Assembly: GCF_000003815.2 (NCBI RefSeq)
Contig: NC_049988.1
Location: 18,797,598-18,861,597, forward strand
Length of the DNA stretch: 64,000 nt
Direction of reading: 5' to 3'
Origin: Branchiostoma floridae
Lineage: Eukaryota; Chordata; Leptocardii; Amphioxiformes; Branchiostomatidae
The notes under the pieces were generated by a model. That model worked only from the letters and a program-made list of their open reading frames with translations. It had not been told where the DNA came from and ran no database searches. The translations under genes and the position numbers were made by a program. The number at the start of each line of letters is the position of its first letter. The stretch's first letter is position 1. Positions 10,137 through 61,508 of the stretch are shown one piece after another.

Positions 10137-10298
10137 CAGATCCTACGGTAGCATAAGACAGTATCAAAAGCTGCCAGAGTAGTGAAGCTGGCTTAGGAGT
10201 GTGTTTCGCTACCGGGGAAATCGACACCTCTTGGCTGACTACACTCCTTGGCCAGTTTGGTACTATCTTATGCCATTGTAGGATCTGCTTGGAGATTA
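10137..10298. mobile_element. Foldback MITE, TCTCCAAGCAGA family (copy 3)
   Basis: AATCTCCAAGCAGATCCTAC at the left and GTAGGATCTGCTTGGAGATT at the right are perfect inverses. Internal AAGACAGTATC and GGTACTATCTTA arms are also inverted. Confidence 0.8.
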
Positions 10299-17700: not shown

Positions 17701-20700
17701 TTTACTAGCCTTTAGTTTCGGGTAGTAATTTCATAATCGGGTTTTTCCTGAGTCTGGAGAAGTGGTCTTGTCCGTAAGGGTTTTGCGAGAACGAGACATG
17801 GCAGCAGAGGCTGAGGGAGGTGAGAGAACATGTCAATGCTTTACTAGCCTTTAGTTTCAGAAGGTAACTTCATAATCAGGGGTTTTCCCTGAGTTTGGAG
17901 AAGTGGGAGGGTTCGGTGAGAGAAGGGTTCGGCAAGGACAAGACGTGGCTGCAAAGGCTGAGGTAGGAGAACATGTCAATACTTTACTAGCCTTTAGTTT
18001 CGGAAGGTAATTTCATAATCAGGGGTTTTTCCTGAGTTTGGAGAAATGGTCTTGTCTGTAAGGGTTCGGCGAGGATGAGACATGGCAGCAGAGGCTCCGG
18101 GAGGTAGGAGAACATGTCAATACTTTACCTTGAATCTTTACCTTTGTAAGAATGGTACGTTCTTAGATTGCGACAGTTTTCGACTCGTTCGATTTTTCAA
18201 ATAAACTTTTCAGTTTTCAGTTAAGTCTTAGCATCCAAAGTGTCCAAACGTGTTCCTTCCGTTGTCTGTTTGTCGCTGTGTCTTAAGTGTAAATGTAGTG
18301 AATGCGTGTTGGTAGTGATTAATTCCTTATGTTTAGGTTGTTGCAGAGGGTTGACAACATCATATTTCAATTGTACTGATTCAGATTTCACAATGTACAA
18401 GCACAATTTTCTATTGCTACACAAATGAGAACATGTCGGAAAGCAATTCTGCAACATTATCAACACCTCCTTAATATGTTAGGCACTTACTCAAGCAGCT
18501 GGATATGATTTTGGAAATGGCCAGATGTTTCAGATGGAATCTACTATCTTTCGTCAGTGACAATGATGACGAAAGATGGTGGATACCGTTTGAAACGTCT
18601 GACCGTTTCCAAAATCGTATCCAGCTGTTTGAGTAACTGCTTTTTGGCGTATCTTATTACCTGGATGTCGAACTTTCATCGACCCTCCTTAATCACAATG
18701 TCTGTTTCTGTACCCACAGATCCAGGGTGCCATCATGGTGTCGGCGCTGTTCCAAGTCTTCATCGGTTTCAGTGGGCTGATCGGCATCATGCTGCGTTTC
18801 ATCGGGCCCCTCGCCATCGCGCCGACGATCGCTCTGGTTGGTCTGTCGCTGTTCGAGCCCGCGGCTAACTTCTGCGGGGTGCAGTGGGGCATCGCTGTTT
18901 TGTAAGTTTTGTGTTTGTTTGGGCCTTTATTTATCCATGGAAATAGACAAAAAACCTACCTAACTTTTCAACAGAACAGCATCGGTCTTTTTTAAGAGCA
19001 ATTCAACTCTTTGTAACAAGACATGACATCAGTTCATACAGATACTATGAGAGATAGAACATCGGACTCTGTGATCAGTGGACCAAATTACAATTTTGAA
19101 AAGTGCAGCTCCGAATCACTTCTACCAACACAGACGAATGTTTAAGCTGGGTCAGAGTTCTATAATTGTAGAAAGTCTATGGCGTCTCCGTCCATAATAA
19201 TTTTAAGTTCACTATTTACTGTTCCTCCATTTCCAGTACCATATTCCTAGTGCTGCTGTTCTCCCAGTACCTGAGTAACTACAAGGCCCCGGCTATCGGC
19301 TGGAGGAAGGGGCGGTGTGGAGTCATCTGGTGGCCAGTCTTCAAGCTCTTCCCAGTAAGTCTTATTGTTTGTGAGTTTGTTGACTACACTTGCCTTACTG
19401 ACAGTTCAGAGCTAATTACTCAACTACTCTAGTCTACAGGCTAAGGCTAGTTCACCTTTATCAGTAAGTTTATCCGTTCTTTTCAAGGACAATGTATTTA
19501 GTGATATCAAGTCGACAGATGACGGTTTCAAACTGTAATATTTTGAAAATAGTACAATTTGAAACTGCCGTCCATGGACTTGATATCCCTGGAAACCCTG
19601 TTTCGCAACACAATGGATATAGTTTAGAGGCGGATAAAAGTGAACTAACGTTAAATCTTTAGTCAGTTTGCTCTCTTTTTCTGAGACAGTGGAAGACAAA
19701 GGATCCCACTATTCGTCTCTTTGTGGGTACTGTGATGTTAAGAGGAGAGAAGTTTTCTTTTTGTCTGAAAATGTGGAGATGTTTTTATTACCATTCATGT
19801 TTACCTTTAGACCCTGTTAGGATTCAAGCTAGAAATATAAGGCCATACCTTTTAAAATGTCATTGTTACATATATTGTAATCTTATAGGTTTAGATCAAA
19901 AGAGAGAATTATTATCCATAATGATTACATCATACCCACCCCACCTCCAGGTTATTCTTGCCATAATCTGTGCCTGGATTCTGAGTGCCATCCTAACCGC
20001 AGCAGGCGCCTACACCGACGACCCCTCAAACCCACAGTACCTGGCTAGAACTGACGCTCGGACAAGTGTGCTGAACGACTCTCCCTGGTTCTACTTCCCT
20101 TACCCAGGTACATGTATGACCGTTATCACCTCCGTGAAAATGGAGGTATTGTTTTTGGTGGGTCTGTCTGTTTCCAAAAATGTGTCGTTTAATTTGGGGC
20201 CCTTAAAAAGTTGGTTCAGGTCAGTAGATTTCTATAGGGCATGTAAATTGTCCAACACTGCCAAATCAATCTTTTATTCTATCTATAAAAAAAATATGAG
20301 ATCGCGCAAGTTGGCTTGTCCTTACTTCATATTTGTAATCTTGTGTTTAGGACAATGGGGCATCCCCACAGTCAGTGCCGCAGGAGTTTTCGGCATGCTC
20401 GCTGGCGTACTTGCTTCCATGATCGAATCCGTCGGCGACTACTACGCTTGCGCTCGCCTGTCCGGTGCACCGCCTCCCCCGATTCACGCCATCAACCGCG
20501 GTATCGGGATGGAAGGGATCGGGTGTCTGCTCGCCGGAATCTGGGGCTCCGGGAACGGTACAACGTCATACAGCGAAAACATCGGCGCCATCGGAATTAC
20601 CAAGGTAGGTTATGACTCAGTCATGGGGTCCTCCTTTCATTTCTGTACACCTACAAGAAGTGTCACATCAGGGTTCATATTTGATTCATACTTGGGTTCA

Positions 20701-23700
20701 TATTGAAATGATGTAATCAATAAAAAGAGTGAGTATCATTACCATTACAACAACCTTTTTTATACCATAGTGACCTACAACATCTCATTACACATCAGCA
20801 GCCATTGTTGCTATGACTTTAACCTTTAAGAAACTGCCAGTCAAGGTCCAATTGACAGTTCTATATCAACATTGTTAAGGAATGGACTGATGTAGAACTG
20901 TCAGCAGGACCTGCATTGTTAACTTTTACCCAAGTTTATGTGTGTATGCCCCAGTTATACTGTTGAGTTCTATATGTGTTCAGGGACACCTGAAAAACAG
21001 ACTGTAGCCCAAGTGTGATTTTTAACCTGGTAAGATAAAATAAACAGAAAATGATCAGACACAGTGGATAACACCGCACTACCCGTAAGGCCTCGAAATG
21101 ACTATGGAACTACTTTAACGACAGGTCGGCAGCCGACGCGTGATCCAAGTTGGCGGCATCATCATGATTGTCCTGGCGGTATTCGGGAAGTCTGGCGCCC
21201 TCTTAACGACCATTCCATGCCCTAGACACAGTGGATACAGCTTCAAAAATATTTCCTTTTATCCTATCTTTATCTTTACGAATCCCCAACAGGTTGGCAG
21301 TCTGCGCGTGATCCAAGTCGGAGGCATCATTATGATTGTGTTGGTAGTCTTCGGGAAGTTTGGCGCCCTCTTCACGACCATCCCTGACCCCATTATCTAC
21401 CTCTTCACGACAATACCGTGCCCTAGACACGGTAGATAGTAAACCACTGTCCCCACAGCTTAAAAAAAAACCTTACTTACCGTGTATCTCTACAGGTCGG
21501 CAGCCGACGTGTGATTCAAGTCGGGGGCATCATTATGATCGTTCTGGCGGTCTTTGGAAAGTTTGGCGCCCTCTTCACGACCATCCCGGACCCGATCATC
21601 GGGGGTCTGTTCTGCTGCACGTTTGGTATGGTGACGGCTGTCGGGATCTCCAACCTCCGCCACGTGGACCTCAACTCCTCGCGGAACCTCTTCATCCTTG
21701 GCTTCTCGCTCATCTTCGGCCTGGTGCTGCCGAGCTGGCTCAATAAAAATCCTGGCGCCATCAACACCGGTGAGAGACTTTTTTTTCTTTTTTTGAATTT
21801 GCTTTTGGAGAGACAAGGACAGGTACTGCACTCAAGTTTTAGTAACTGATTTTAATAGTGCCACAGAAGGTAAAGGTCACTCACTTTACCTCTCTGACTG
21901 AAGTGAGGTAGGTCGTGCTAAGTTATTCTCCAAGCAGAGGTTGGGGATAGTAGTGGTCGGGAGTATCGTTCCCTCCGCTCACCTCTCCTTTATCCTGGGG
22001 GTTCTCCCTCATCTTCGGCCTGGTGCTGCCCAGGTAAGGCTTAAGAAAAAAAATGTTGTGTGCGCTTTAAGTGCCTGAAACCACACATTTCTGTGTGGTC
22101 TAAAGGGTTCGACCCACTAGACAGAGCCGCATGGAAGCGCAGTGTAAAGACTAGCTGACTGCTGCCTACCTGTGTCAGGGATCCCAGCAGCAGTATAATC
22201 AAACAATGGATAGTGAGTGAGTGAGTTAAACTTAAAGCTGATTCTGATGTTTTAAATGTTGCAGGTGTGCCTGCTTTGGACCAGGTTTTGACAGTGATTC
22301 TCAGCACTAACATGGCTGTGGGGGGTCTGATCGGGCTGGTTCTGGACAACACAAGGTCACTTAAAATGCCAGAAACCACTCATTTCTGTATGATGATGAG
22401 TTGTGCAGACTATGCGCTTGTCCTTGTTTAATCCACTCTCACCACCCATTTATCCCCTTAGTCTTTTCGGGGATTAGGAAGCTGAAGGATGCGGAAAGCC
22501 TTACCCAAAACCGCCCTGAGTGGAGACTACTTGCTGCCCAATGTGTCACAGAAAGATCTAAGTCTTATTGATAAGTAAATAATGCAACTTCTTCTAGTAT
22601 TTAAAGCTAACTTTGATGTTTCAGGTGTGCCTGCACTGGACCAGGTGTTGACGGTGATTCTCAGCACTAACATGGCTGTGGGGGGTCTGATCGGGCTGAT
22701 TTTGGACAACACCATCCCCGGCACCCTGGAGCAGAGGGGCATGCTGGAGTGGAGAGGGATCGAGGACGGTAGGTGTTTTTCCTTCTGCTCTTTTAGTCTT
22801 TGTAGACAGCCTGCAGCATTACCAGTGTCCCACGCAGGCTTTTAGGTGTCCAGGGTAGCCAGGATTTCATTTTAGCCTAGTGGTAACGGCATGGTAGCGA
22901 AGCGACCAACCACTGAATGAATCAGGAGATTAGTGTGGAATGGGGGTCTTGGTCCCTCCACAGTGAGATTTTGACAAAGTAGAGTTAAAAGTTGGCACTC
23001 ACTGTTAACATCACATGTAATTTGAAGGATTTCTTGGACAGTGTTTTGAATGGCATATCATCATTTTCCATTGTTCAGACATTGATTAGACATTGTTGAA
23101 CAAGCAAATGATAGCAAAACACTACTACACCAGTTAAAGATTAGAGTAGTGGCCCTTATTTTAGCGTAGTGGTCACAAATTTTAGCGTAGTGGCCCACTA
23201 CGCTAAAATGCACTAGCTAGAACCCTGGTGTCTTTCCGCCTGCTGTATTTGTCTTGATATCTTGTGACAATGGAGCCCTGTCGTGGAAGAATGGTGTCAG
23301 CCTTTTAGCCAGGCATGCATCCAGGTGTATTTTGGATGTGCTGTTCTAAAAATAGCAAGAAGCTAGATGCACTAGACACCCTTACACTGGGGAGTAGATC
23401 CTCTGACAAGCATGAAATTATGAATGCTCAGGGATGCCACAAGGTCTTTTGTGGTCACAGTCTTTTACTGTGACCTCTCTGACAGTAATTTTGCCCCTCA
23501 GGATACCTTAGAATGCACCAATTTGACCTAAAATTCTCTATAACTCTGCACCATGGAAGCTGGATGCTCCCGGATCCCCCCTACAATACTTGCATCTATA
23601 TCACTTACTGCAACTCTCCAAGAAATTTAAAATCCTAGCTAAAAGCTGACAGGTGTGTGCACTAGCCCTCTTCTGAGTATCCCGTTATATTCACTATAAA

Positions 23701-34654: not shown

Positions 34655-35989
34655 ATGTCTGACGCATTCGGATTCATCAAGGACTTCCTGGCTGGAGGGA
34701 TCTCCGCCGGAGTCTCCAAGACGGTCGTGGCACCCATCGAGCGTGTCAAGCTGCTCCTTCAGGTAAGGAAACTTCTTAAGTAGTTCCTAGACTTGTGTTG
34801 TTAGCAGTACTTGAGTGTTCTTTTGTTTTACAAAGATGGTTCTGGAACGCCCAAGGTTAGCTTCTAGTTCTTTAGTCTTCTTGATCGTTTTTAACAGTTA
34901 ATGTTTTCACCAAAGTTGGAAACGTGACGGGCTACTCTATTAATGCTTGTATTTAATGAACTTTGCAGTGTACTCGATTACGCGTGTACCCTTGCTTTAC
35001 TTCTAGTTCATAGACTTGATCGTATCTTTAGCAGTATCTTGGACGGGCTGGTCTACTTATGTTAGTATTTCGCGTACGCGTGTTTTGTTTTCCAGTGCAA
35101 GTTCTAGAACATCTACGTATGTTATAAACAATTTTAGAACAGCCACGTGTTTTTGCTTTGGTTTGTGGTACCAGTTTACAGTTTTACTTATGATCGTCTT
35201 TATTCCATGCTACAGGTGCAAGCTGTGTCTAAGGACATCCCCAAGGACAAGCAGTACAAGGGCATCGTGGACTGCTTCTCCCGCGTGACAAAGGAGCAGG
35301 GCGTGGCATCGCTGTGGCGCGGCAACCTGGCCAACGTCATCCGCTACTTCCCCACCCAGGCTCTCAACTTCGCCTTCAAGGACACCTATAAGAAGGTCTT
35401 CCTGGGCGGCGTGGACAAGAAGACCCAGTTCTGGCGCTACTTTGCCGGAAACCTGGCGTCCGGCGGTGCAGCAGGGGCCACATCCCTGTGCTTCGTCTAC
35501 CCGCTGGACTTCGCCCGGACCCGCCTGGCTGCCGATGTTGGAGGCGGCGGCAAGCGCGAGTTTAACGGCCTCGGCGACTGCCTGAAGAAGATCTACAGGG
35601 CCGACGGCATGTACGGACTGTACCGCGGCTTCGGAGTGTCCGTGCAGGGCATCATCGTCTACCGCGCCGCCTACTTCGGCGGCTTCGACACCGCCAAGGG
35701 CATGGTGCCTGCCGAGTACAACAACTTCTTCCTGACGTGGGCCATCGCCCAGGGAGTGACCACCGCCTCTGGAGTCATCTCCTACCCGTTCGACACAGTG
35801 CGGCGCCGCATGATGATGCAGTCTGGCCGCAAGGAGGTCCTCTACAAGAACACCCTGGACTGCTGGAGCAAAATCCTCAAGACCGAGGGGTCGTCAGCTT
35901 TCTTCAAGGGAGCCTTCTCCAACGTTCTCCGCGGCATGGGCGGCGCCTTCGTGCTGGTCCTGTACGACGAGATCAAGAAGGTCTTGTAA
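34655..35989 (+). CDS. SLC25A4/5/6-like (ANT): Mitochondrial ADP/ATP translocase (2 exons, 293 aa)
   Basis: Inner-membrane carrier that exchanges matrix ATP for cytosolic ADP. Exon 1 is 34655-34762 (36 codons, [20 protein letters not shown] start) and exon 2 is 35216-35989; the single intron is phase 0, after KLLLQ. All three mitochondrial-carrier signatures are present: [22 protein letters not shown] and [12 protein letters not shown]. The last contains the RRRMMM hallmark that distinguishes ADP/ATP carriers from other SLC25 members. Length 293 is normal (about 298 in human). Codons are strongly C/G-ending, fitting a highly expressed gene. The promoter array lies immediately upstream and AATAAA lies at 36439. 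Which vertebrate paralogue it matches is not meaningful here, so the symbol is generic. Confidence 0.97.
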
Positions 35990-38312: not shown

Positions 38313-41300
38313 ATGTCGCCCCCTAGCATCAAGAAAATCCTGATCAGCGACAGCGTCGCTCCAGAGTGTAAAGAAGTTCTGGAAAAGGCGGGAATCGTCG
38401 TGGAAATGAAGACCGACATGACGAAAGACGAGCTTTGTGAGAAAATCAAGGTGGGTTTATAAAACTTCACGTTCAAAAATTGCATCATGCAGGCATCTAT
38501 CGATCGATTTAATGGCACAACTTTCTTGTTGTTATATATTTTGCTAATTGCATTCCTCTTATTTTGTTTTTGTATCTACAAGAAGAAATATATTTATATT
38601 TCTTCTTTGCAAGAGGCTCATGCATGTAAGTCCATGCTTCAGCTACAAATTTCAATAGCTTAGAAATTCGAGCCGGAGTCTTTTCAAAGCCTGCAGGCAA
38701 AACTATCACGTGCAAGCCATGTGTGACGCTAGAATGTACTATTTCCCCACAAAACATAGAAATCAAAACTATTTTCTATCACTACATTTATGATTTGTTA
38801 CGATTATATAAATATTTGCGTTGCCGCGAATTTATTTGAAGTGTTTTGGGGAGAGAGTTTATCAAAAAGGTGGGAGGGGGGCGTTTAGTGGGCGGCTGCT
38901 GTAGCATTATATTTTCCCAGTTTAATTTCGATCCATCAGTGCGAGTTGAGATGCCAGACATTCCTTAATCCGTCTGATATAACATCGGCACTCTGCGTGG
39001 GGATTTTCCACCGGCACATGCTGACGGGCCGCCGCACGTGTGGCCCTCGGGTTAATGATTGATAGGGCCCCGCCTAGCCTCGTGGGGCGGCCCGGTACGG
39101 GGTTAACACAACCGTACAGTTTACACAAGGCTTGCAGCGATCTCCTCACACCCCAAAAGGGCTGGTACCGAGGTTATCTAGACGCTGGCATGCTGCCTGG
39201 GACAGTGTGTGTGTTGTTTTTTGGCAGCCATGTGTTGAAAGCAGGACACATAGACACAGTGCCACGTTGCTAGTGTGTTAGGCACTGTCAAAATACACAA
39301 CCTTATTGTATTGTAGTATCCGCATTATTTTAAAGCCCCTTTGTGTTGACTGTAGCCAAAGAGATTAAGGGGTCTGTCACCAGCTTAACTAATATTTTTT
39401 TCCGTGGCACTGATTGTTTTGGTAGCCTTTGTTGTCGATTCTCAAAGTTTATGAAAATACATTTTTGTTAATTTCATGTCTTAAAGTTCAGATTATTTTG
39501 AGGGATGACGTGAAATGTCAATCCTGGGATGGATTGATAAACAGATTTTGCAGATAGCTTTGATATGCATATAATACTAGGGTGTTACCAGCTGTTTTGA
39601 TATTATTACATAATTCATTGACAACTGTTTAATCTAGCGACAATCAATGTAGAGTATGATAAGGGACTTGAATTGTTGTAAAGCATAATTGAGATCCCCC
39701 CATTCAGACCCTCATAAAAAATTCTCACTATTTTCCACACCAACAAATATGCTAAAGATTTTGTAATATAGTATGATATAACTTTAGTAATACCTAACTT
39801 TACAATTAACAGTTCTCAAGTGTTATGGTTGGAAAAAGAAAATATATTGCACAAGGTGCTAATAGTATTCAAAAGGGCTGTGAAACAACTGTTGATAGTA
39901 CAAATGTATAATGCAATATATGTACACTGGTATCGAATAACCAGCTGTTTGTCCTTTCACTGTCTTCTACTGAAAAAGATTTCGTGCCCCCCTTTTCAGA
40001 TTAAGGAATGGAATAGCCCATTCCAAATTGCATTGTCCATATTAGGAGCAATAGAACTACAACAAGTGCAAGTGACAGGCCCATATGTGTGTTCTAACCC
40101 GATGTTTAGTGTAAATAGTGGTGCCCCTTTCCAGTAGACAGAAATTATTAACGCAAGTATTGATTGTAAACATACCCTACCCTAACTGCTGCTAAAAATA
40201 GATTAGATGATAAATTACTAAAAGTACTGGTTGTAGAGACAGATGGCCAATTGATAGATAATGGGTCATAAATCTTCATAAACTCTTAGATGACACTTAT
40301 CAAAAGGCCCAGTTGACAAACAGTGTTGCATGTCCAACACTATTAGAGTCAGTGGTCTCTTTTTGTCTCCATGAAATGGAAATAATGTTTTGGGCGTGTC
40401 TGTCTGATTGTTTGTGTGATTTTATAGTCAGTATAACTCAAGAGCCTCTTGATAGATTACGATGATATTTGGTAAGTATGTAGGTGTTTGGAAGATGAAG
40501 GTCAAGGTCAATTTTAAGCCCCCTAGTATGTGACCTTGGTACTGCAGCAGAACTTCCATTTTTGCATCTTTTTACCTGGACATCCATCCATCAGTCCTGT
40601 AGCTCAGGAAGCTGTAGGGGTATGACATGCTTTGGTCTTGTAATTATATCACTGTCTATAGTCACATATATGTGTTCCATGTAAAGGTGGGTTCACACGT
40701 GCGTATATATTTAAGTCCATTTGAGGTGCGTATGACGCTCTTAGTCTCTACCAGGCTCCACAGGTCACGGGAAAAATAGTACAAATTGGACAAATATAGA
40801 TACATAACATGCCAGATGAGTTAGCTGACCGAGAAGTATGGTTAGCGACCCTGCTAACTTGTCTGACATGTTACCTGTTTACGTTTGTCCAATTTCTATT
40901 ATTTTACAACGACCTGTGGAGCCTGGTGGAGGTAAATACTCCCATGCGCGCCTCATACGGACTTGAATATATACGCAGGTGTGACCCCACCTTTACTACC
41001 ATGTGGAATTGCAAAAAATTAGCCTCCCAGAATGGACTTGCAAATAAACTTTCATTCAATAAGTCATACTCAGAATGACTTCGCTTTTTGACGGATCTAA
41101 ACTTTAAACCAGGGAAGTTAATGATCAACTCGAATCGTTATCAGTGCCTACTTCAGTAGTGGATTGTTGTTAAACATTTGTTTAAAGTGTTTGCAAACGA
41201 TACCCTGTGGTGGTATAGGGGTGATGCAATGATTTATGCAAATATTTGCTTTAAACTTGAAAATCTATTCCTGTATTGAGGGCGTCGCAATCAAAATATA

Positions 41301-44300
41301 GTTTATCGCAGAACATGTTTAACTTATTAAAGTGGGCATCATGAGGCGTCAATACAGGTTCTTGATACAAATAGATACATGTAATTGCAAAGTTATAAGC
41401 TAGATTAAACTTCAAGACCACAAAACTATAAAAACATGCTATTCCTGAACTAGACAAATACTCATCATACAGTCATACTAGATACAGAATCTGAAAGCTG
41501 ATTTAAACTTCTTCCAATATCTGAGCCAGAAATTATTACCCTTCATACATCTGGACAATGATGAGAATATTTCGACAATACACATGCACATTTTTTTAGA
41601 AGGAAAAAACTGATTTGTGTGTTTCCCTTTCATACCTTTTAGTTTGAGTCATTGATAAGCTTTGTAGAACTTTTCCGTCGATCCAACCCTAAGCTTCAAG
41701 GAGACTTTCATTACGTTTGTTAATTCCTCTGTGATGGAAGCGGAGATGCGATCAGTTGTGCCAGCTGCGCACCGATACAGATCGCTGCTTTTGACGTCAC
41801 CCGCTCGCGTAAAGCTCCTCGGTTTGACATTGATGTGTGGGACTGGAAGTTCGATCAATAAGGGTTTTAAGGGCTTTATATATGTATTGATTATCATTGG
41901 GTATTGTGTTTCATAAGTTGGTGTATGATTATAGTATATGTATGTGGTTTTGTTCCTAGTATATTGCATTGATTTATTGCAGTGTTTTGAGCTTGTCTGT
42001 CTGCGTGTTTGTGTGTGTGTCACACCTAGTCAGGGCCAGTGTGTATGTCTGTGTGTGTGTATGTCTGTGTGTGTGTGTGCGCGTGTGTGTGTGCGTGCGT
42101 GCGTGCGTGTGTGTGTGTGTGAGTGAGTTTGTGTGTGTTTGTGTGTCTGTGTGCTTGTCTACAGTTTCTGTATGCTCTGCTAGAGAGTGCTTGCAATCAT
42201 GAGGGGGTGAAGTCTGCCATCTCTGATTACCATACTAGTATTTTACAAGTGCTCCTATTTTTCAATTACATCATCCGAAACAATAGTAAAACTGACTCCA
42301 TAGCCGTCTTCACCTCTGTCAAAACATAGAAATGAAAAGTAAAACCATAAGAATGCCAACATTTTACAGACGATCAAACATCTTTCAATAGTTTCATCAT
42401 GTTGGTAAATCACAGATGTATAAACTAAGCATTTTATTCAAACCAAAGTGTTAACAAAGAACTTTAATTGCCACCCAATCGACGCACACACATTGGTTGA
42501 ATTGCCTATTGTGATTGACAGATAGAATGGATCTATTGGCTGGATTAATGTCATACGGTTGCAGGGCTCGAAATACCGGCTGCATATGCAGGTTAGTGCA
42601 GGTAAAACTGGAGCTGTGCAGGTATTCCTGGTGTCTACCTGCACCAAACCTGCACTGGTCCATGTACTGGGTTTTAGACATAAATGTCTTATGATGTAGG
42701 TGCATGTGGATTGTTCTTAGTTGCATTGGCTGTTACCACCTATATTGCTATAAAGTGTAAAAGAAAATTCTGCAATGGTTCCTGAACAATTTTATTCTGA
42801 TCCATCCTTCCTAAATTCATAGTGGTGCAGGTAAAATTTGTCTGGTGCAGGTAATTTTCAATGTTACCTGCACCAGTGCAGGTATGCAGAAAAAGTATTT
42901 CGAGCCCTGGGTTGTGAGAAGGCATTTGGGATGTACTGTCCTTGTACCTTTCACCCCTATTACTGTTCATCCGACCATTTAATTACATCGCAGTGAATTT
43001 ATTACCGGTAAGCGCCCCAGGCTTTGACGTTGCTCTTTATTCAATAGAGTCATTTTCTCTTAAGCGTTCCTATTTCCTATCGTGGGTAGATAGTGGGGGA
43101 ACGTCCTTAGACGATTACCCGAGTGACGCAAGTTGTTGTGGGTGATCGATTTTGTGACTTTGGGGAATTTCCATCACGTTTACGTCAGTAAGACTGAGAG
43201 ATGTGTTGTGAGTTTACATTGCTAGCACACAAAGAACTGTTTATGGCCTATGGGGTATGAAAAAATGAAATTGAGAAAGATATGGATACAAGTTTGATTG
43301 ATTTGGGGAAATTTCCATCACATTTACGTGAGAGATGCATTGTGAGTTTGCAGTGCTGTCACATCAAGAACTAGTTTAGGTGGAATGAAATAGAATGAAG
43401 TTGTGAAAGATATGATGCAGGCACAACATTGTACATGTATCTGAAAACTTTATTAACCTTGTATACTGGGACAGCACTTGTAACATCACCCCTCATAATT
43501 ATGCCTGCCCTAAAACTATTGGAAATAGCAAATTTTTTTACCGTTCCCAGACATTCTGTTCTGGAATAGAGTGAAAGGTCCTGGAGACAGCCCTTGTCAG
43601 AAAGAAGAGGTTTGAAAACTTGAGATTTAATGAAATTGTTGTTTTTCTCCCCAGGGGGCTGACGGGTTGATCGTTCGTTCTGCCACCAAGGTGACAGCCG
43701 ACGTTATCGAGGCGAGCGACTGTCTGAAGATCGTGGGCCGCGCGGGAACCGGCGTGGACAACGTGGACATTCCCTCGGCAACCAAGAAGAACATCGTGGT
43801 CATGAAGTAGGTATTGTGTGGATAAAACACTGTGCAAAGTACATGTATAATGCTGGCAAGGGGCATGGAGGGAGGATAGTAGGAAAAAGGCAGGGCATAT
43901 GAAGGAAAGAGGGAAAAAAATTACTGGATAATAAAGAGGGCCAATCTAGTCATGCCACTGACTGGGCAACATCCAACAGTAGATCCTTTGCTGACGTTTC
44001 ATTTTTTGAATTGTCAGTGTACTATTACAGGTGTTATTACATTCATAACATGAGTGACAGGTAAAACTGTTCTGATAAGATCATTCTTTGATGGCTCTTT
44101 CCCTATCATTGATGATCTCCAGGAAGTTCTGGTAGTCCTGCAGGCTCTCAGGTGGCCTGTACAAGGTATCTTCCACCAGCATACAGTACTCTGTAGCACT
44201 GCTGACAGATGAACTGGGTTGAAAACATGTTCTGGTATTAAGATACAAGTAAATGATTGAATAATCATGTGTCCCGTTCTCACCCCCCCTTCCCCAGCAC

Positions 44301-47300
44301 CCCCGGAGGAAACACACTGAGTGCTGCAGAACACACCTGTTTCCTCATCGGAAGCTTAGCAAGGTCAGTCCAGCTGTTTTCACTTCCTGGTTGTTGTTGT
44401 TACTATCAATTTTCTTCCAACAGGGACTGTTTTAAAGGTAGAGTACGTACCTCCAAATGTTCGATGTCTGACATCTTGGTCACTGAGAATGGCCTAGTCT
44501 CTACCTTTAAAACAGTCCCTGTTGGAAGAGAAATGATAGTAACTGTATACATAGGTGACTGATGAACCTCTTTAACTGGTTGTTGTTGTTGTTCTTATTC
44601 TTAACCTTAAGCATTGGTGTAGTGTAAAGTACTGTAGTCATCATTGTTGTTTAGGTCCTTTGTGCAGAGTTGTAGTTTGTATAGACTGACTGACAGTAGT
44701 AGTAGTAGTAGTAGTAGTAGTAGCAGGGTAAAGGTTTGTTCATAACCAATAGCTGTGCTGGTTTAAATACTCTCCATGCCATGATGTTATGCCCTTGGGA
44801 AGGACGCTTCACACAGCTTTCCCTGACGATGGAGTGATGACCACTGATTGTATGCAAAAACACGGATTTTGTTGTGCTAAATACCAAGATGTGCACATTT
44901 TCCCACCAGAAAACGTTTTTTGATACCTTTGTTGGCACACTGCATGTAACTAAATTAATGTTGCATGTATCTATGTTGAATTTTCAGTTTCAAAAGCCAA
45001 CAATTTGGTTTCCAAAATCCATCTGGAAGTCAAAGTCAAAGTGATAAATGCTAAAGTCCTTCCCTGTTCCTTGTTGTTTCTCAGGCAGATCCCCCAGGCC
45101 CACATGTCCATGAGGGAGGGCAGATGGGACAGGAAAAAGGTGAGACACATTAAAAAATGTTATCCTTTGACTTTTTGAGCAATGCCTTTTTGTATCTTTC
45201 TATCTTGCTGTAAAATTCCTTTGTATGTACATGTGTATTCTTAAATGGCAAATTATATATGTTTCATTTTTGCTTAGTTCATGGGAAACGAGCTGTACGG
45301 AAAGACGTTAGGGATCATCGGTCTGGGGAGGATCGGCAAGGAGGTGGCACTGAGGATGCAGGCATTTGGCATGACGGTGAGAGGAGCTTCTTTTTTAGTT
45401 GGCAATTTCCAGATTGTACAACTTCATCTGAACTTGTCTTGGTCCTGGTGTATTTATTGGTGATTCACTGCAATACATTTTACCAAGCCCACCACGCCTG
45501 TCATTGTTGCATGAGAGTGCAGATAGTTGGCGAGGTACATACATACCTTTTATTTTGACTGCAATTGGCCCTGTCGGCCAAAGCCGCTCTTCCCAGAGGT
45601 CCAGTGTGAGGGGTAGTTTTTCATGAGAACATAAATAAATGATAGGTCAAAGGTCATAGCATTTAATTAGATGCAACCTCTGACCCTTGGCCCAGTGCAC
45701 GTGGGTGATCAGTCGCTCCAGTTCATCTGATGGGTGAGAACACGTTTTCACCCTGCAACCACCCTCCCGTAGATTTATCGGTGATTCACCGCAATAAATT
45801 TTACCAAGCCCACCACGCCTGTCATTGTATGGAAGGAGAGTGCAGATACATGTAATTTCCAGTTGCTTGAGTAATTGCTATTTGGCATTTCTAGATCGTA
45901 CATGTTTGACAAAGCAGATTAAAACCATGGTAAAGTGTTAACTATTGGAATGCAAAACCATCTGGTCTTTAGAACATTCTTCCAAAGGTTGAGAATAACG
46001 GTCAAACCTGTACAAGTGACACAATTGTCGACACTTTTCGGTGCATGGACATAGTTTCAGTCAGAAGTTTTGTTAAGCCAGCTTCCTATTCAAATAAAAA
46101 CTGCTTGCCCTGCCCCTATCCAAATGAAGGATAAATGATTTGTAACCATTATGCACACATTCAAAGTTTGACATTGAAAATGTAAGTGTCTTTATGTATT
46201 TCAGTTTTACTAAAACTGTATTGTATCACTAGACACAGAGTTTTGGCTAAATTGAAAAAAAAAAGATAATTCCTATCAAATGTAGTACCAACCCCAGTTT
46301 TCTTAGGACCAAAACAGGAAACACAACATTTTTTCCTAGGCCTTAGATATAAAAGGCCATGGTGCCCTGAATAGAAATATCACTTGTTCGTGTCAGGAAA
46401 TCGCTGAATATTTGTAACAGCAGCTGTTAGCTAGAGGCACGCTGTGCTGAGGGTAGACAACAGCTGGCACTTACAATGTACAATGTGTTATCTTCATGCA
46501 TGCAAGTCATACTTGTGTGATGATAGCTGTTAAGTATATGCATGTACATGTATAGCAGGGTTCTTAACAGGCCTTTTTAGCATAGGGGGCCCCCTATGCT
46601 CTGATTTGGATCCCCTATGCTGTGTTTCAACCAACGAATGGGGACTTTTGTGTTGTTTTTGTAAGAAATGTTCACTACATTTGGCCCTAAAATGCAAGAA
46701 ATGGTTTACGAATTCTAAAATTTTCAAGGGGAGGATTCCCTACAATAGTGATATATGTCTGCATCACTTTACCACATGGCTTTGCTGCACTAAGAAGCCC
46801 CTACACTGTGAAAAAATATCCTGGTGATAACAGTGTATAGCATTGATTAGTCCATACATCAATACATATCATTGAATCAAAAGAGTCGTTTTACCTCTTA
46901 GGATAGTTGTGTGAACTTGTATGTGATCTGAATTTTAAGAACATTTGTATATTGACTGGAGAGGGAACTTTGTAATGTTCATTCAAGGCATAAAGCTTTG
47001 TATATGTATCAGCATTAAAATTTTATAAGTTAGTTGACAAAAGAATTATTATGTTCTGACCAAAGAAGCAGAATGTAGTTATATTTGTTGTTAAAACCTA
47101 GATTGTACCAAGGAGTTATTGTCAAGATTGTTACTTGCAGGGCTCTAACCATCATTGAGTGATACAAGAAAAGCAAGCTTAATAAGACACCTATTTCTAT
47201 TCCAGACGATAGGTTATGACCCCATCATCGATGGCAAGACAGCCTCAGAGTTCAACGTGGAGTGGATGGAACTGGAACAGCTGTGGCCGAAATGTGATTA

Positions 47301-48855
47301 CATCACCGTACACGTGCCACTCATCCCACAGACACAGAGTAAGTTCCTATTATCCTAAAACTTTCCTTATATTATATTACTAGTAGTAGCCAGGGTTGTA
47401 GCCAGCTCCCATCCTTCTGTCCTTAGAAAGAATTTTGCAGCTGGGGACGGAAAAAAATTTTGCCCATTCCATCCGGATATCCTCTGTGATTAACAAAAAT
47501 CAATATGTAAAGATATAAAAACTTGAAATTTTGCTCTCCAAGCTCTCCAAAAAATCAGCGGAAGGTTTTGGAAGTATGGTCCACCAGCAAAATTTACACC
47601 TCAAAATGCAGGAAGTAGCATTTTAGAGGGCCTGGATTTCATGCCCTTAATGGAACGTCGGGCCTTCGGTGCTCAATAGGATTTCCATTCAAACTTGAGG
47701 GGACGGAAAATGATTTCAAGCTGGCTACAATCCTGCTTAGTAGTATCCAGTATTTGACTACACAGGAGTAGGCAGCAGTCTGCTAATTTTCACACCGCGC
47801 TTCCATGCGGCTCTGTCCAGCTTAGTATATAGTAATCACCCCACAGACACAAAGTAGGTTTGCATGTCCTAAAACTTTCCGTATATGATAGATTAATACC
47901 GGTACGCAGGCTTTTATCTAGGATTTTATCATAGGGTGTCCAATTTTCTTCCCGTTTGGCAAGCGCTGCAGGCATGAGTATTGTAGGGGGTCTGGGGACA
48001 ACCTCACTCGGAAAATTTTGAAATTTATAACTCTCTGAAACACCATTTCCCACATTTTGAGGTGCAAATTTGGGGGAATGAAGCAAATTTACTGTCAGAC
48101 AAGCCACATGTGACCTATAGCATCCCTGGTCAATCAGAATTTCATGCTTGTCAGAGGATCTGCTCCCCAGTGTAAGGGCGTGCAATTTGAGTTATTTTTC
48201 TAACAGGGCGTACAATGTACGCCTGTACGCCTACCTGGCTAAAAGCCTGCCGGTACTCGTAATCATCCTTCAGATACAGAGTAGCTTTCTTTATTCGAAA
48301 ACTTTCTTGGTATAATACTTTGTCCCTGTAGGCTGTACTATTGTAACAGTGTTGGTTTCTATAACCTAAAAACTCATCAACAGTGGAACAGGTTAGCATG
48401 GAACAAGATAAAGTCTTAGATGGATGGATTGATGCAGAATGTTTTACAGATGGTTTACAAGATAAAACAGCCAGATAGGTTTGAGCTCAGTTTTGGCTTA
48501 GGTTTTCACTAATGGCTCTGTCCCTCTAGGGTTGGTTACGTCAGTGTTAATACAGCTGTTATCGGATGCATGTTGGCTGTGCATGTGGGGTCCTGATAAC
48601 AGCCATGCAATCTATAACTTGTATTAAAAAGATAAGTGGAATTGTAAAATGAAATAATTTGTTAAAAACAGATGCGAACAAGCTATTAGGGGGCCCAAAA
48701 CGTAATCATTTCAAGGTTTCACCAAAACCCACCCACTTTCCAAATATCAATGCAATCCATCAAGGCATTCTTGTGTAATACTGGTCATTTGCACATGCAC
48801 ACGTGTATGCACACACACACACACACACCACTCTTACACACACACACAGACACAT

Positions 48856-48892
<37 letters not shown>

Positions 48893-51231
48893 AACATTCA
48901 CACACACATACACACACACATACAAGCACACACACACACACACACATACATACATACAAACACACACACACAGCCACACACACAAACACACACACACACA
49001 AACTGCATTTGGAGCCAGGAAATCCTATTTTGCCTCCAAACATCTGCTTGGAGATTACTATATATATTGTACGCATGATTTGCATTTTTTTGCTTTTTTA
49101 AAAGAATATTCCTTATGGCCCACTCCTTTGACTACGTACAGGCATACAATCACAAGATAGTGATTACATTGTAAACTGTATTTGCATGTTCTGCTTTTAG
49201 AAAAAAAAGTTAATTTTGATTACATTATTAATTTTTTGAACTAAGCATTAAAAAAGAATAGGCACACGGTTGCAAAAACATTAACTACATTGTAACCTGT
49301 TTTTTGCATGTTCTGCTTGCTGTTACTAACGCACGGCATGTTTCCCACCCAAGACATGCTGTGTGATGAAACGTTTGCGAAGTGCAAGGACGGCATGCGG
49401 GTTGTCAACGTCGCTCGGGGCGGGATTTACGAAGAAGCGGCGATATTGCGTGCGCTGGAGTCCGGGAAATGTGGAGGGGCAGCGCTGGATGTGTGGGAGA
49501 AGGTACGGGAGAGAATACACGTAGTATAGCCCCTCTAAATAACAGAATTACATTCCTGGATAGGGCTGTGTATCTAGAAATAAAAAGAAAACGGTACAGA
49601 AAAGTGTGTACATGTCCTTTAACAAGTATTGTCAATTATATCATTTATAAACAATTTTGCAGACACAGGTAATACTGTTAGTTACGCAGCCCTTTTCCTG
49701 GCACATGTTTTGCCCTTTTAAAGAAGGAAGAAAAGGTTGAAAGTTAGAAATGGCAATGTAATTCTGTTAGTTTACTGAAGGGGTGAAAGCTAAATTTTAC
49801 ACAACAGCAACAAGTTAACCTCATTTTTCCTCCTCCATCATCTTTTCAAACTCTCAAACTTCAGACCTCATGAACGAAGCGGTGTTCGCCAAGTGTAAAA
49901 AGACTCTGAAGGTTCTGAACGTTTCTCGCGGCGGGATCATATCGGAGGCTGACTTGCTGAAGGCCCTGGAAGCTGGGAACATCGCTGGTGCCGCCATTGA
50001 CACCTGGGAACAGGTTGGTTCTGGCTGCAGGGCATGATGGGTTGCGACCTTTAACCCCTGATGACCTCATGCTGACCTTGTGGTTACCTTTAACCACTCG
50101 AATGCTTACTTACGAACTTTACATTTTCAGAATGCAGCAGGGAAAACCTTATCCGTGGACAGTGCTTGATATGACAGCTTTTTATGATGAATTTGCCTGA
50201 GAAATGTTCATTCAGTCTAGAGCTTTTGTCATAACCATCATTGTTGTCAAAGATACAACACACACTAATAGAAAAAATGACACATGCTTGCATAAAGTAA
50301 TTGATACTTGTCATGATTCTGCTAGAGAGCAATGATTTGTGTATGGATTGGATGACCAGTGGGTTTTTTTCAGCAAGTGTGCTAGCTTATCTCTTGTTTG
50401 CTGGTATAATGTTAAAAACAATAAGTATGGCATACTCATGTAGCGCCATATTAAGTTGAGAAGAGAGTCGGCATGTGAGATGAGGTGCAGTTTGTGAACC
50501 CAGGATTGCAGCTTGTACTTTCCCAGTGCTGGGAGACTTAATAAGGAGCTCGTCGTAAATCCCACCGATGTAATCTTAATTTCTCTAATTTTTCACTCCA
50601 GGAGCCAACCACTAACACGGCACTAGTTCAGCACCCCAACGTGATCGCAGTGCCCCATCTTGGCGCCAACACCCGGGAGGGCCAGCGTCGCTGCGCTATC
50701 GAGATCGCAGAGCAGATCGTCGACTGGGTCAACGGCAAGGGGCTGGTTGGTGCAGTAAGTATTCATTGGATGATTTTTTACCTTTGCCTAGAAGGTTATG
50801 GTTTTTGTTGTGTATGTGTGTGTGCAGAAGACCAGCATAATTCTAGAATGTGTGTTTGTGTGTAATGTAGAAGGCAAGCATGTGTCTAGTATGCCTGCAT
50901 AGATTCTGGTGATATCTTATTTGTAGGACATAATAAAATTTTGGGCCTTGCTTCAAAAGAAACTGTAGTGAGACGTGACATTTTGGTTGAGAAAAGACAG
51001 GGATTGTCTCTAAAGCCTCCAAGAACTATGTTGTGTTGTGTGCAAAAGTGTAAAAGTTTTGTGGAATATGATACTGTTTTGCTCATACAAATCTTTAAAG
51101 AAAATTTTAGATGTATAAGTTAGAGCATTATACAAAATTACACATCAAAATAACAGTTGTTATATACAGTCAGCAAGAATTGTAATGATACAATGTAACT
51201 CAACCCCCTTTCTCTTTTTCAGGTCAATGCC
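38313..51231 (+). CDS. PHGDH: D-3-phosphoglycerate dehydrogenase, 3' end lost in assembly gap
   Basis: First enzyme of serine biosynthesis: NAD-dependent oxidation of 3-phosphoglycerate to 3-phosphohydroxypyruvate in the cytosol. Exons: 38313-38450, 43655-43806, 44298-44363, 45085-45139, 45278-45376, 47206-47338, then one of 49354-49502 or 49865-50013, then 50602-50754, then 51223 into the gap. Frame is kept at every junction (315 codons to 50754). Key features are [12 protein letters not shown], the nucleotide-binding [13 protein letters not shown], the catalytic-arginine segment ARGG (or SRGG), the EP glutamate opening the 50602 exon, and the catalytic-histidine motif PHLGA. The exon at 51223 begins VNA, as in vertebrate PHGDH. 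The C-terminal regulatory part, if present, is not visible. Confidence 0.95.
40737..40932. mobile_element. Foldback MITE, GCCTCTACCAGGCTCC family (in PHGDH intron 1)
   Basis: TAGTCTCTACCAGGCTCCAC AGGTC and the inverse GACCTGTGGAGCCTGGTGGA GGTA are the ends. ACAAATTGGACAAAT and GTTTGTCCAATTTCT are inverted inside. Confidence 0.8.
42003..42128. repeat. (GT)n-rich microsatellite in PHGDH intron 1
   Basis: Imperfect TG/GTGC repeat of about 125 bases. Cys/Val-rich frames across it are artefacts. Confidence 0.9.
42562..42911. mobile_element. MITE-like element with CAGGGCTCGAAATAC ends
   Basis: GCAGGGCTCGAAATACCGG at the left and the inverse GTATTTCGAGCCCTGG at the right. GTGCAGGTA words occur in both orientations next to the ends. 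No coding capacity is seen. It sits in PHGDH intron 1. Confidence 0.7.
43155..43420. repeat. Two-copy tandem duplication in PHGDH intron 1
   Basis: TTTGGGGAATTTCCATCAC, GTTGTGAGTTTACA, AAGAACTGTTTA and GAAAGATATGGAT in the first block recur with changes about 145 bp later. Confidence 0.65.
44085..44235 (-). CDS. Possible antisense exon inside PHGDH intron 2, unknown protein
   Basis: On the minus strand a frame ends ...[20 protein letters not shown], then [18 protein letters not shown] and a stop. It is preceded by a possible acceptor (CAACCCAG or CTGTCAG). The residue composition and periodic hydrophobics look protein-like, but no family is recognised and no partner exon is assigned. It could be the last exon of a nested gene, a decayed retrocopy or chance. 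Confidence 0.25.
44397..44550. mobile_element. Foldback element in PHGDH intron 3
   Basis: GTTACTATCAATTTTCTTCC AACAGGGACTGTTTTAAAGG TAGAG is followed about 65 bases later by the inverse CTCTACCTTTAAAACAGTCC CTGTTGGAAGAGAAATGATA GTAAC with few mismatches. Confidence 0.75.
44697..44722. repeat. (AGT)n microsatellite
   Basis: Eight to nine AGT units (also read as TAG) in PHGDH intron 3. It is followed by a SINE-like body (ATGTTATGCCCTTGGGAAGG, near 44784). Confidence 0.85.
45455..45850. repeat. Direct repeat pair of about 75 bp in PHGDH intron 5
   Basis: GGTGATTCACTGCAATACAT and CCAAGCCCACCACGCCTGTC at about 45459-45530 recur at about 45779-45850 with small changes. Confidence 0.7.
47391..47735. 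mobile_element. MITE with CAGGGTTGTAGCCAGC ends (copy 1)
   Basis: CAGGGTTGTAGCCAGC at the left and GCTGGCTACAATCCTG at the right are inverse. TTTTGCAGCTGGGGACGGA and CACCTCAAAATGCAGGAAGT lie inside. The copy at 54961-55323 matches in the inverse orientation. Confidence 0.8.
47906..48250. mobile_element. MITE with GCAGGCTTTTAGCCAGG-like ends and a 6-bp direct flank
   Basis: GCAGGCTTTTATCTAGG at the left and the inverse CCTGGCTAAAAGCCTGC at the right. The flanks read CGGTAC immediately before and after, a possible target-site duplication. The interior matches 23296-23650 in inverse orientation. Confidence 0.75.
48803..49003. repeat. (CA)n microsatellite in PHGDH intron 6
   Basis: About 200 bases of CA repeat with ATACA interruptions. 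His/Thr and Cys/Val repeat frames are artefacts. Confidence 0.95.
49354..49502 (+). CDS. PHGDH: PHGDH exon 7a (alternative catalytic exon, first version)
   Basis: 149 bases between AAG and GTACGG. With the single base carried from the preceding exon it encodes 50 residues, [20 protein letters not shown], then [15 protein letters not shown], ending AALDVWEK. It supplies the NAD-site/active-site arginine region. The match to vertebrate PHGDH (RVVN.ARGGI..E.ALLRAL.SG.C.GAALDV) is clear. It is followed 362 bp later by a homologous exon of identical length. Confidence 0.9.
49865..50013 (+). CDS. PHGDH: PHGDH exon 7b (alternative catalytic exon, second version)
   Basis: Also 149 bases, between TTCAG and GTTGGT, with the same phases. 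It encodes [20 protein letters not shown], then [15 protein letters not shown], ending AAIDTWEQ. By my count 26 of 50 residues are identical to 7a, including the RGG arginine. The frame is intact, and because 149 is not a multiple of three only one of 7a or 7b can be included without breaking the downstream frame. That makes a mutually exclusive pair more likely than two tandem constitutive exons. Confidence 0.88.
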
Positions 51232-51331
51232 NNNNNNNNNNNNNNNNNNNNNNNNNNNNNNNNNNNNNNNNNNNNNNNNNNNNNNNNNNNNNNNNNNNNN
51301 NNNNNNNNNNNNNNNNNNNNNNNNNNNNNNN
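51232..51331. other. Assembly gap of 100 Ns
   Basis: It starts nine bases into the PHGDH exon that opens at 51223. The sequence after it (AGATATACAAGATAGCTCG, then a TAG) does not resemble PHGDH. The end of the gene is missing, or the contigs are misjoined. Confidence 0.97.
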
Positions 51332-55682: not shown

Positions 55683-56485
55683 TTATATACAGGCTATTTC
55701 ATCAGTGTGAGTACTCCTGTGTGTCTTCAGTTCTCCCTGTTGCCTGAACTGTTTGCCACATGTCACACACACGTAGGGTTTCTCCCCTGTGTGAGTCAGT
55801 ATGTGTCTCTTTAGATTTGACAGGCGAATAAACCGCATGTTGCACTCGTCACAACTGTGAGGTTTCTCCCCAGTATGAGTTTTCATGTGCTTCTTAAGAT
55901 TGTCTATGTGACCAAACTCCTTGTCGCACAGGTTACAATGGAAGGGTTTCTCATTGCTGTGAGTGTGTTTATGAATGTTCAGGATGCTCTTCTGACCAAA
56001 CTGCTTCCCACAAATCTCACACTTGTGCGGTCTCTCCCCTGTGTGGGTCCGTTTGTGTCGCTTCAGGTTACTCAGCTGACTGAACTGCTTGCCGCACTCC
56101 TCACACTTGTAGGGTTTCTCACCTGTGTGAGTCCGCAGGTGGCCCTTGAGGTTGCCCCGCTCACTGAACTGCTTGCCACACTGGCTACACATGAAGGGTT
56201 TCTCCCCAGAGTGAGTGCGCATGTGGACCGTCAGGGCGCACTTCAGGCTGAACGCCCTGCCGCAGTCCTCACACCTGTAGGGTTTCTCACCTGTGTGGGT
56301 GCGCAGGTGGCCCTTGAGGTCGCCCAGTTGGATGAACTGCCTGCTGCATACCTCACACATGAAGCGTTTCTCAACAGGCCATTTCTCCGTTTCGGTTTCT
56401 TTATCCTTGGTTGATGTCTCAACGATTTCATCCTTCTTACTCCTTCTCCGTTTTGCTGACATTGCAATTTTGGTCTTGAATTCCA
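55683..56485 (-). CDS. C2H2 zinc-finger protein, 8 fingers (terminal exon, 259 aa from ATG)
   Basis: Likely nuclear DNA-binding factor. From the ATG at 56462 the frame encodes 259 aa: a basic [10 protein letters not shown] start, a charged ~35-residue leader, then eight consecutive C2H2 fingers with canonical TGEKP linkers. The fingers begin CEVC, CEDC, CSQC, CEEC, CEIC, CNLC, CDEC and CVTC; the seventh has the unusual CDECNMRF. A splice acceptor (CTTCTTCAG before 56485) opens the exon in phase 1, so an upstream exon exists and translation may begin earlier. Fingers 4-8 closely match fingers 5-9 of the gene at 60393-61346, so the two are tandem paralogues. There is no KRAB, BTB or SCAN domain. 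Target DNA is unknown. Confidence 0.9.
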
Positions 56486-56545
56486 CTGAAGAAGTGAGAA
56501 AAGAAATGTTTGGAAATGCTAGCCATGTACAAAAACATTTACCAG

Positions 56546-57035
56546 TACAGTCAAACCTGTCTATAGCAGCCACTCAAGGGACTGGAGAAATATGGCCACT
56601 ATAGACAGGTGGCCACTATAGAGAAAATGTTGATCAATTGACCATGAGCAAGCTACACATGATTCTAGTTCCCACTTATTAAATCTTTCTCACCAAGTAA
56701 CATTGTCTCGATCTGTAAATTCACCGACAAAGACTCACACTTTAATGCTCAAGGCATGCATACCTTCTGCTACCACCAAAATGACACTCCAAATCCTCGC
56801 AAACTACAATTTCAAACTCAGTGCAGGGTGACATAAGGCTGCAATATGGTTGCATTAGGCAGTGTTACTGTATCTACTAGTACGGGACTGGAAATCGTGT
56901 GGCCGTGGCCCCGTTGGACAGGTGGCCACTAAGCCTATTTCTTAATCATTACGAATCCAAGGGACCAACAAAAAGTGGCCATTATGGCCAGGTGGCTGCT
57001 ATGCAAAGGTGGTTGTTAATACAGGTTTGACTGTA
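56546..57035. mobile_element. MITE with TACAGTCAAACCTGT ends
   Basis: TACAGTCAAACCTGTCTATA at the left and TACAGGTTTGACTGTA at the right are inverse. GTGGCCACTATAG and GTGGCCATTATGGCC words occur inside. It lies just upstream of the zinc-finger exon at 55683-56485. Confidence 0.8.
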
Positions 57036-60392: not shown

Positions 60393-61375
60393 TTACATGA
60401 AAGGTATCCCACTATTGTGGGTACTCTTGTGTGTCTTCATGGCCGTCAGTTGCCTGAACTGTTTGCCACATATCATACACATGTAGGGTTTCTCCCCAGT
60501 GTGGGTCATTTTGTGCGACTTCAGAGCACCTTGTTGACGAAACTGCTTGCCACATATGATGCACATGTACGGTTTCTCTCCTGTGTGTGTCATTTTGTGT
60601 CTCTTAAGGTTGGAGAGGCGACCAAACCGCATGTTACACTCGTCACAGCTGTGAGGTTTCTCCCCACTATGAATTTTCAAGTGTTTCTTTAGATTGTCCA
60701 TGATGCCAAACTGCTTGTCACACAGGGTACAGTGGAAGGGTTTTTCCTCCCTGTGGGTTTGTCGGTGGATGTTCAAGATGCTCTTCTGGCCAAACTGCTT
60801 CCCGCAAATCTCACACTTGTGGGGTTTCTCCCCTGTGTGGGTCAGCTTGTGCCTCTTAAGGTTGCTCAGCTGACCGAAATGCTTGCCGCACTCGTCACAC
60901 ATGTAGGGTTTCTCACCTGTGTGAGTCCGTAGGTGGCCTTTGAGTTGCCCCTGCTCACTGAACTGTCTACCACACTCATCACACATGTAGGGTTTCTCCC
61001 CTGTGTGGGTGCGCACGTGGACTTTTAAAGCATTCCGCTGTGCAAATCCCTTGCCGCACTCCTCACACTTAAAAGGTTTCTCCCCAGTGTGGGTTCGGAG
61101 GTGGTTGTTTAGGTCCTGGCGTCGGCAGAACTGCTTGCTGCAACGCTCGCACAGGTAGGGTTTCTCCCCTGTGTGTGTCCGCATGTGGCACTTCAGGTCG
61201 CTCGCCTGCCTGAACTCTCGATCACACCTTCCGCACTCGTACTTCTTCTTAACACGAGGTGGCTTCTCCTTCTTCAAAGACCAGTCTGGATCCCCGTCTT
61301 TAAGCTGGTCCTGTTCTTCTGTTTTGGCGTCGACTTCCGTTGCCATGGTAACATCAAATGCAAAGTCAACCAGTT
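60393..61375 (-). CDS. C2H2 zinc-finger protein, 10 fingers (terminal exon, 317 aa from ATG)
   Basis: Likely DNA-binding nuclear protein. From the ATG at 61346 it encodes 317 aa: a ~35-residue acidic/basic leader (MATEVDAKTEEQDQLKDGDP) and ten uninterrupted C2H2 fingers with TGEKP linkers. They begin CGRC, CERC, CEEC, CDEC, CDEC, CEIC, CTLC, CDEC, CIIC and CMIC. Fingers 5-9 align with fingers 4-8 of the gene at 55683, including the [13 protein letters not shown] finger and CDECNMRF, so recent tandem duplication is likely. The last two fingers are near-identical to each other. An acceptor (TTGAACAG, exon start 61375) opens the exon in phase 1 and the frame is open up to it, so upstream coding sequence may be joined. 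Confidence 0.9.
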
Positions 61376-61508
61376 CTGTTCAATTGAAAAAAACAACAAC
61401 AACAACAAAAACATTGATAAACAATTTCATAAGAATGAACAACTGAAGAAGTAAGCTTGAAATAAACTTGAATACTGGCCCTGACATTTCTATTAGGTGT
61501 AGGACAAA

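Follow-up and report, generated by a model that had tools for sequence, protein, structure and literature searches.

Two homologous, probably mutually exclusive versions of an active-site exon in the PHGDH gene of the lancelet Branchiostoma floridae

The PHGDH locus and its two versions of exon 7

The window analysed here, a stretch of 64,000 nucleotides of Branchiostoma floridae DNA (contig NC_049988.1 of assembly GCF_000003815.2, positions 18,797,598 to 18,861,597; coordinates below count from its first letter), carries on its plus strand a PHGDH gene in which the exon encoding part of the active site, exon 7, lies in two homologous versions, here called 7A and 7B. PHGDH is the entry point of serine synthesis and a target for cancer drugs. 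The gene model was derived from splice sites and homology, with a human PHGDH sequence as the query in tblastn searches of the window. The model containing 7B was identical over 315 of 315 residues to the public B. floridae protein C3YSM4 (P0002). The features of the gene, with the evidence for each, are as follows.

38313..38450, plus strand: exon 1, coding part, with the ATG at 38313 (tblastn with human PHGDH, donor site, joined frame; joined model equal to P0002)
43655..43806, plus strand: exon 2 (tblastn, splice sites, joined model)
44298..44363, plus strand: exon 3 (splice sites, joined model)
45085..45139, plus strand: exon 4 (splice sites, joined model)
45278..45376, plus strand: exon 5, with the Rossmann GLGRIG motif (splice sites, joined model)
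47206..47338, plus strand: exon 6, leaving one base of a split Asn codon at its end (splice sites, joined model)
49324..49330, plus strand: TACTAAC, candidate branch point matching the branch-point consensus perfectly, with the branch adenosine 25 nt before exon 7A; the sole plus-strand copy in the gene
49354..49502, plus strand: exon 7A, one alternative for the active site (residues 215-264), with NVARGG / AALDV (48 of 50 residues shared with the B. lanceolatum protein P0004)
49503..49864, plus strand: intron separating 7A and 7B, 362 nt (splice sites)
49865..50013, plus strand: exon 7B, the other alternative for the active site (residues 215-264), with NVSRGG / AAIDT (all 50 residues shared with B. 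floridae P0002 and 44 of them with B. lanceolatum P0003)
50602..50754, plus strand: exon 8, with the active-site His in PHLGA (splice sites, PDB alignment, joined model)
51223..51231, plus strand: last coding exon, first part, encoding VNA (joined model), followed by a 100-N gap at 51232-51331

The rest of the last exon (RDLKL and the stop codon) would sit within this gap, and the C terminus RDLKL was taken from P0002. The window contains one further 100-N gap; none lies between exons 6 and 8. The best PDB match by sequence was human PHGDH for both isoforms, and sequence and fold together placed the lancelet enzyme nearest to PHGDH and not to CtBP or GRHPR. Within intron 6, a decayed copy of the exon 6/donor boundary was found (47836-47890, 82% over 56 columns), and a further stretch at 48259-48317 was 71% like that copy; these may act as decoy donors and point to tandem duplication in this region.

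Exons 7A and 7B are each 149 bp long, have equal entry and exit phases, share the split Asn codon and are bounded by GT-AG sites. Identical positions number 26 of 50 in the encoded protein and 83 of 149 in the DNA (BLASTP E 1e-20 in a single pairwise comparison), so that the homologous pair described in the first-pass annotation of this DNA was confirmed in its coordinates, length, phases, splice sites and identity. The 66 base differences fall 20, 12 and 34 at codon positions 1, 2 and 3, respectively; synonymous sites are saturated (pS 0.83), with a nonsynonymous distance (dN) of 0.42, a combination that marks two exons both maintained under protein constraint. Joined to exons 1-6 and 8, either version gives a frame open across 315 residues. 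Omission of both leads to a stop at codon 219, with its end 139 nt before the junction of exons 8 and 9, and inclusion of both to a stop at codon 267, with its end 293 nt before the same junction, in agreement with the earlier argument that the frame demands exactly one exon. Both wrong splice products would be expected to undergo nonsense-mediated decay (NMD). No credible third copy of exon 7 was found in the window by tblastn with 7A and 7B (E up to 1).

Conservation between lancelets and age of the duplication

A search of 5.8 billion proteins with exon 7B alone yielded 20 candidates and two matches, P0002 from B. floridae (50/50) and P0003 from B. lanceolatum (44/50). With isoform A as the query, the top of 1005 matches (the best 120 being listed) was P0004, a second PHGDH of B. 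lanceolatum. P0003, which carries 7B, and P0004, which carries 7A, agree at 273 of 273 residues in the rest of the protein, and all 24 of their differences fall among the 50 residues of the exon; each is reported on a 20,381,850-bp contig. The simplest reading of these sequences would be a single B. lanceolatum gene giving two isoforms, which supports the mutually exclusive use proposed in the first-pass annotation. Both proteins appear to derive from the BraLan3 annotation of that species, which drew on RNA sequencing of stages and organs and had isoforms added by PASA (PMC9673378, in excerpt). Transcripts are likely to stand behind both isoforms.

It is hardly credible that P0003 and P0004 are products of separate, adjacent PHGDH genes, or that the exon pair is an assembly artefact made of stitched haplotypes or paralogues. 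Haplotype problems are a common fault of lancelet assemblies, the window has its two gaps, one of them in the last PHGDH exon, and the boundary stretch of exon 6 and intron 6 is copied within intron 6; however, 24 of 50 residue differences between 7A and 7B and saturated synonymous sites are far above allelic difference, and the sequence from exon 6 to exon 8 runs without a gap. In the window, tblastn found no second copy at the protein level of exon 6, exon 8 or other PHGDH parts with a credible E-value, and the B. lanceolatum proteins are identical elsewhere in what is presumably an independently built PacBio/Hi-C assembly (PMC9673378, in excerpt).

Between B. floridae and B. lanceolatum, 2 of 50 residues changed in 7A, 6 of 50 in 7B and 10 of 273 in the remainder of the protein. 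Because these changes are few, both exons appear to remain constrained between the two species; the difference in rate between 7A and 7B was not significant (Fisher p 0.27).

A tree built from the 50 residues encoded by the exon (43 rows) grouped 7A with animal PHGDHs (92/90) and placed 7B just outside, at a fork left unresolved by the tree, and a single clade of 7A and 7B was not rejected (approximately unbiased test, p 0.228). With these 50 residues, a duplication confined to lancelets and an older one would both fit. Each exon paired with its counterpart in the other lancelet, with support of 100/99 for 7A and 100/98 for 7B, and the likeness across species (48/50 for 7A, 44/50 for 7B) exceeds that between 7A and 7B (26/50). 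Because each exon pairs with the other species' counterpart, the duplication is older than the split between B. floridae and B. lanceolatum. No B-like protein was seen outside lancelets, either among the two matches to the exon alone or among the best 120 of 239 matches to the exon with its flanks; the best non-lancelet match in the latter set had 64% identity over 86 residues.

The exchanged segment in a shortened enzyme

Exon 7 encodes residues 215-264, a piece of the nucleotide-binding domain. In human PHGDH, Arg235 contacts the substrate carboxylate or its analogue, and the backbone of C233 and the side chain of D259 contact the nicotinamide (PMC5732821, PMC6300728, both in excerpt; human residue numbers in these papers are the lancelet numbers minus one). 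The equivalents of Arg235 and Asp259, R236 and D260, are present in both exons, and H283 is encoded by exon 8. R236 and G237 in 7A and 7B bear out the earlier statement that the RGG arginine of the active site is retained by each.

The two exons were compared with a profile of 39 non-lancelet relatives, hand-picked from 234 fetched and mostly prokaryotic. N233, R236, G237 and D260 are invariant in all 39 and retained in both 7A and 7B. At position 235, 7A has A (17/39 profile rows) and 7B has S (22/39), and L259-D-V in 7A stands against I259-D-T in 7B (I259 21/39, T261 3/39). Behind RGG, 7A has Y240-E241 (0/39 each) where 7B has I240-S241 (21/39 and 1/39), and at position 245 the I of 7A occurs in no row, whereas the L of 7B occurs in 38. 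Four residues of 7B, M217, V221, L229 and N253, are likewise found in 0/39 rows. Since each exon thus holds residues seen in no relative of the profile, neither 7A nor 7B is simply ancestral, and both have shifted at the turn that comes after the catalytic arginine.

AlphaFold2 models had a mean predicted local distance difference test score of 94.9 for isoform B of B. floridae (P0002) and 94.8 for isoform A of B. lanceolatum (P0004). For both, the best PDB fold match was human PHGDH 7dkm, with template modelling scores by query length of 0.93 (P0002) and 0.92 (P0004). Both isoforms are thus predicted to be compatible with the human PHGDH fold, the models speaking of fold and not of activity.

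One of the exons, namely the faster-changing 7B, might be a decaying relic that is still open but seldom spliced in and without a job. Such a relic could explain why 7B is less like human PHGDH (24/49 residues, against 32/49 for 7A; the human stretch used agrees with the PDB alignment), why it changed faster between the lancelets than the constitutive part, why four of its residues are in no profile row and why its donor, CAG|gttggt, deviates from the usual consensus. We nevertheless regard this as very improbable: the public B. floridae protein carries 7B, as does P0003 of B. lanceolatum, the exon has no stop in either species and retains the invariant residues, and several of its residues that would seem unusual in an animal PHGDH occur often among the mostly prokaryotic relatives of the profile (S235, I259 and L245).

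The lancelet PHGDH is 323 residues long, and the three lancelet PHGDH proteins found end in RDLKL. Pfam matches were confined to PF00389 and PF02826 (P0002 and P0004), in addition to which a starfish protein of 540 amino acids (P0012) had PF19304; as ACT was not scored by Pfam in the starfish protein either, its absence from the lancelet enzyme rests on length. By length, the aligned PHGDHs of fish, echinoderms and Trichoplax have the C-terminal ASB/ACT region and the lancelet protein is without it. A tblastn search of the window for human PHGDH beyond residue ~320 gave no credible match, within the limit set by the gap at 51232. Among the matches listed, the closest by sequence were animal PHGDHs, the full-length ones of about 520-545 residues, and because these nearest relatives are long, the short lancelet form looks like a secondary loss.

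Type III PGDH comprises substrate- and nucleotide-binding domains, with neither ASB nor ACT and without serine feedback (PMC6300728, in excerpt). The lancelet enzyme has the architecture of this type, of which Entamoeba histolytica offers an example, with no ASB and no ACT domain, but its nearest sequence relatives are animal PHGDHs. A short PHGDH may well work, since human PHGDH truncated to residues 3-314 kept 75% of its activity (PMC5732821, in excerpt).

Exon choice and related systems

The frame, together with the expected NMD, would suffice for exclusivity. Steric hindrance between the splice sites, a known but not obligatory way of enforcing it, is unlikely, with an intron of 362 nt and the closest upstream AG 50 nt from the acceptor of 7B; because of this AG-free stretch the branch point of 7B should lie close to the exon. 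Competing RNA structure, another such way, had no support overall: in six exon-intron pairs (7A and 7B, each with intron 7, with intron 8 and with the terminal 344 nt of intron 6), each compared with 60 dinucleotide shuffles, there was no excess duplex energy, 16 to 58 of the 60 shuffles being equal or better. An 11-nt perfect complement joins the active-site codons of 7A (49422-49432) with intron 8 (50553-50563, 38 nt before exon 8) and was reached by 1 of 200 shuffles; as the best of six pairs it is a weak lead. The complement between 49952-49961 in 7B and 50369-50378 was reached by 9 of 200, and the other four pairs were ordinary.

Upstream of exon 7A, a 16-nt direct repeat containing TGCATG occurs twice, at 49181-49196 and 49303-49318 (TGCATG at 49183 and 49305). 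TGCATG is the Rbfox motif, and 14 of its 21 plus-strand copies in the window lie inside the PHGDH gene. Over the whole window its total on both strands, 42, matched the shuffle mean of 44.7, and the motif is a lead only.

Elsewhere in the window, a short recurring element with the core TGCTTGGAGATT was noted in both orientations at 10284, 49043, 51803, 51940 and 52454; the 12-base core has eight copies in the window and is perhaps a dispersed repeat. Pfam analysis assigned 19663-20703 to the xanthine/uracil permease family, 35138-35986 to a mitochondrial carrier and 55686-56573 and 60396-61379 to two minus-strand C2H2 zinc-finger arrays.

We consider it highly probable (about 0.93) that 7A and 7B arose by tandem duplication of a single ancestral PHGDH exon and are spliced in a mutually exclusive manner. 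Exon choice would then swap residues 215-264, that is, the arginine for the substrate carboxylate, the aspartate and backbone position holding the nicotinamide, and the helix next in the chain. The frame polices the choice, as with 149 bp per exon only 'A or B' is readable, and NMD would clear mis-spliced products. Both mRNAs would be produced in regulated ratios from one gene, as P0003 and P0004 presumably are, and both proteins would be active PHGDHs, distinct in their kinetics or in how they handle nucleotide or substrate.

Several points weigh against mutually exclusive splicing of two working exons. Exon 7B has changed more quickly than the residues shared by both isoforms (6 of 50 versus 10 of 273; Fisher p 0.024), which fits weaker constraint on it, and both exons hold the residues noted above that occur in no profile row. 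The BraLan3 annotation also took B. floridae proteins as hints (PMC9673378, in excerpt), and one of the B. lanceolatum models could rest on such a hint. The lancelet matches name two species, B. floridae and B. lanceolatum, in 90%-identity clusters of 2, 3 and 6 members; the lancelet DNA compared was that of the window, and B. lanceolatum entered the comparison through its proteins.

The regulatory domains are missing from the same enzyme, which raises the question of whether splicing took over regulation. This is an attractive idea because type III enzymes are without serine feedback (PMC6300728, in excerpt), although it is speculative and on balance unlikely that exon choice replaced the lost ASB/ACT control of serine synthesis, with 7A as the housekeeping version and 7B selected by tissue or stage for another substrate or coenzyme preference. 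In the SRGG...AAIDT active site of 7B, S235 and I259 are common to many prokaryotic relatives, and were the exons used in this manner, the activity of 7B may be, for example, reduction of a 2-oxo acid. Two naturally occurring isoforms, set apart by an active-site segment alone and under constraint in two lancelets, would be a ready experiment on the role of that segment in kinetics and specificity.

The first-pass annotation knew of no described case of such exons in PHGDH. No description of mutually exclusive exons in PHGDH was found in open-licence PMC papers, most of which were screened superficially, but both isoforms already stand in public B. lanceolatum records. The excerpts of PMC10154039, PMC10888101, PMC10729575 and PMC7614516 did not link PHGDH to the term 'mutually exclusive exon', and PHGDH was absent from the main texts, supplements aside, of PMC5740500, PMC7969005 and PMC9741552. 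Tissue-specific alternative splicing of PHGDH in pig muscle, with the type of event not stated (PMC10888101, in excerpt), and its mis-splicing in SF3B1-mutant cells (PMC7614516, in excerpt) have been reported.

Either-or duplicated exons are already known, also in the metabolic enzymes KHK, PKM and OGDH, and the lancelet PHGDH pair is a further, conserved case with an unusually central position. KHK, whose isoform functions have been studied, is unlike lancelet PHGDH in being a sugar kinase and not a dehydrogenase, and a human gene. The two are alike in that homologous exons are swapped beside a ligand site with a catalytic arginine kept in both (PMC9741552, in excerpt). Exons 4a and 4b of OGDH, likewise a dehydrogenase, resemble the lancelet pair in being mutually exclusive exons of ancient duplicate origin (PMC7969005, in excerpt). 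For comparison with 4a/4b, the lancelet inter-exon intron is 362 nt long and the AG-free stretch before 7B is 50 nt. PKM (PKM1/PKM2) is like lancelet PHGDH in its mutually exclusive exons and belongs to glycolysis, from which PHGDH is fed. The PKM isoforms differ in an allosteric residue that binds fructose-1,6-bisphosphate (PMC9741552, in excerpt), whereas the lancelet pair swaps a stretch with active-site and coenzyme contacts. Among metabolic enzymes known to have either-or exons, lancelet PHGDH is an added active-site case.

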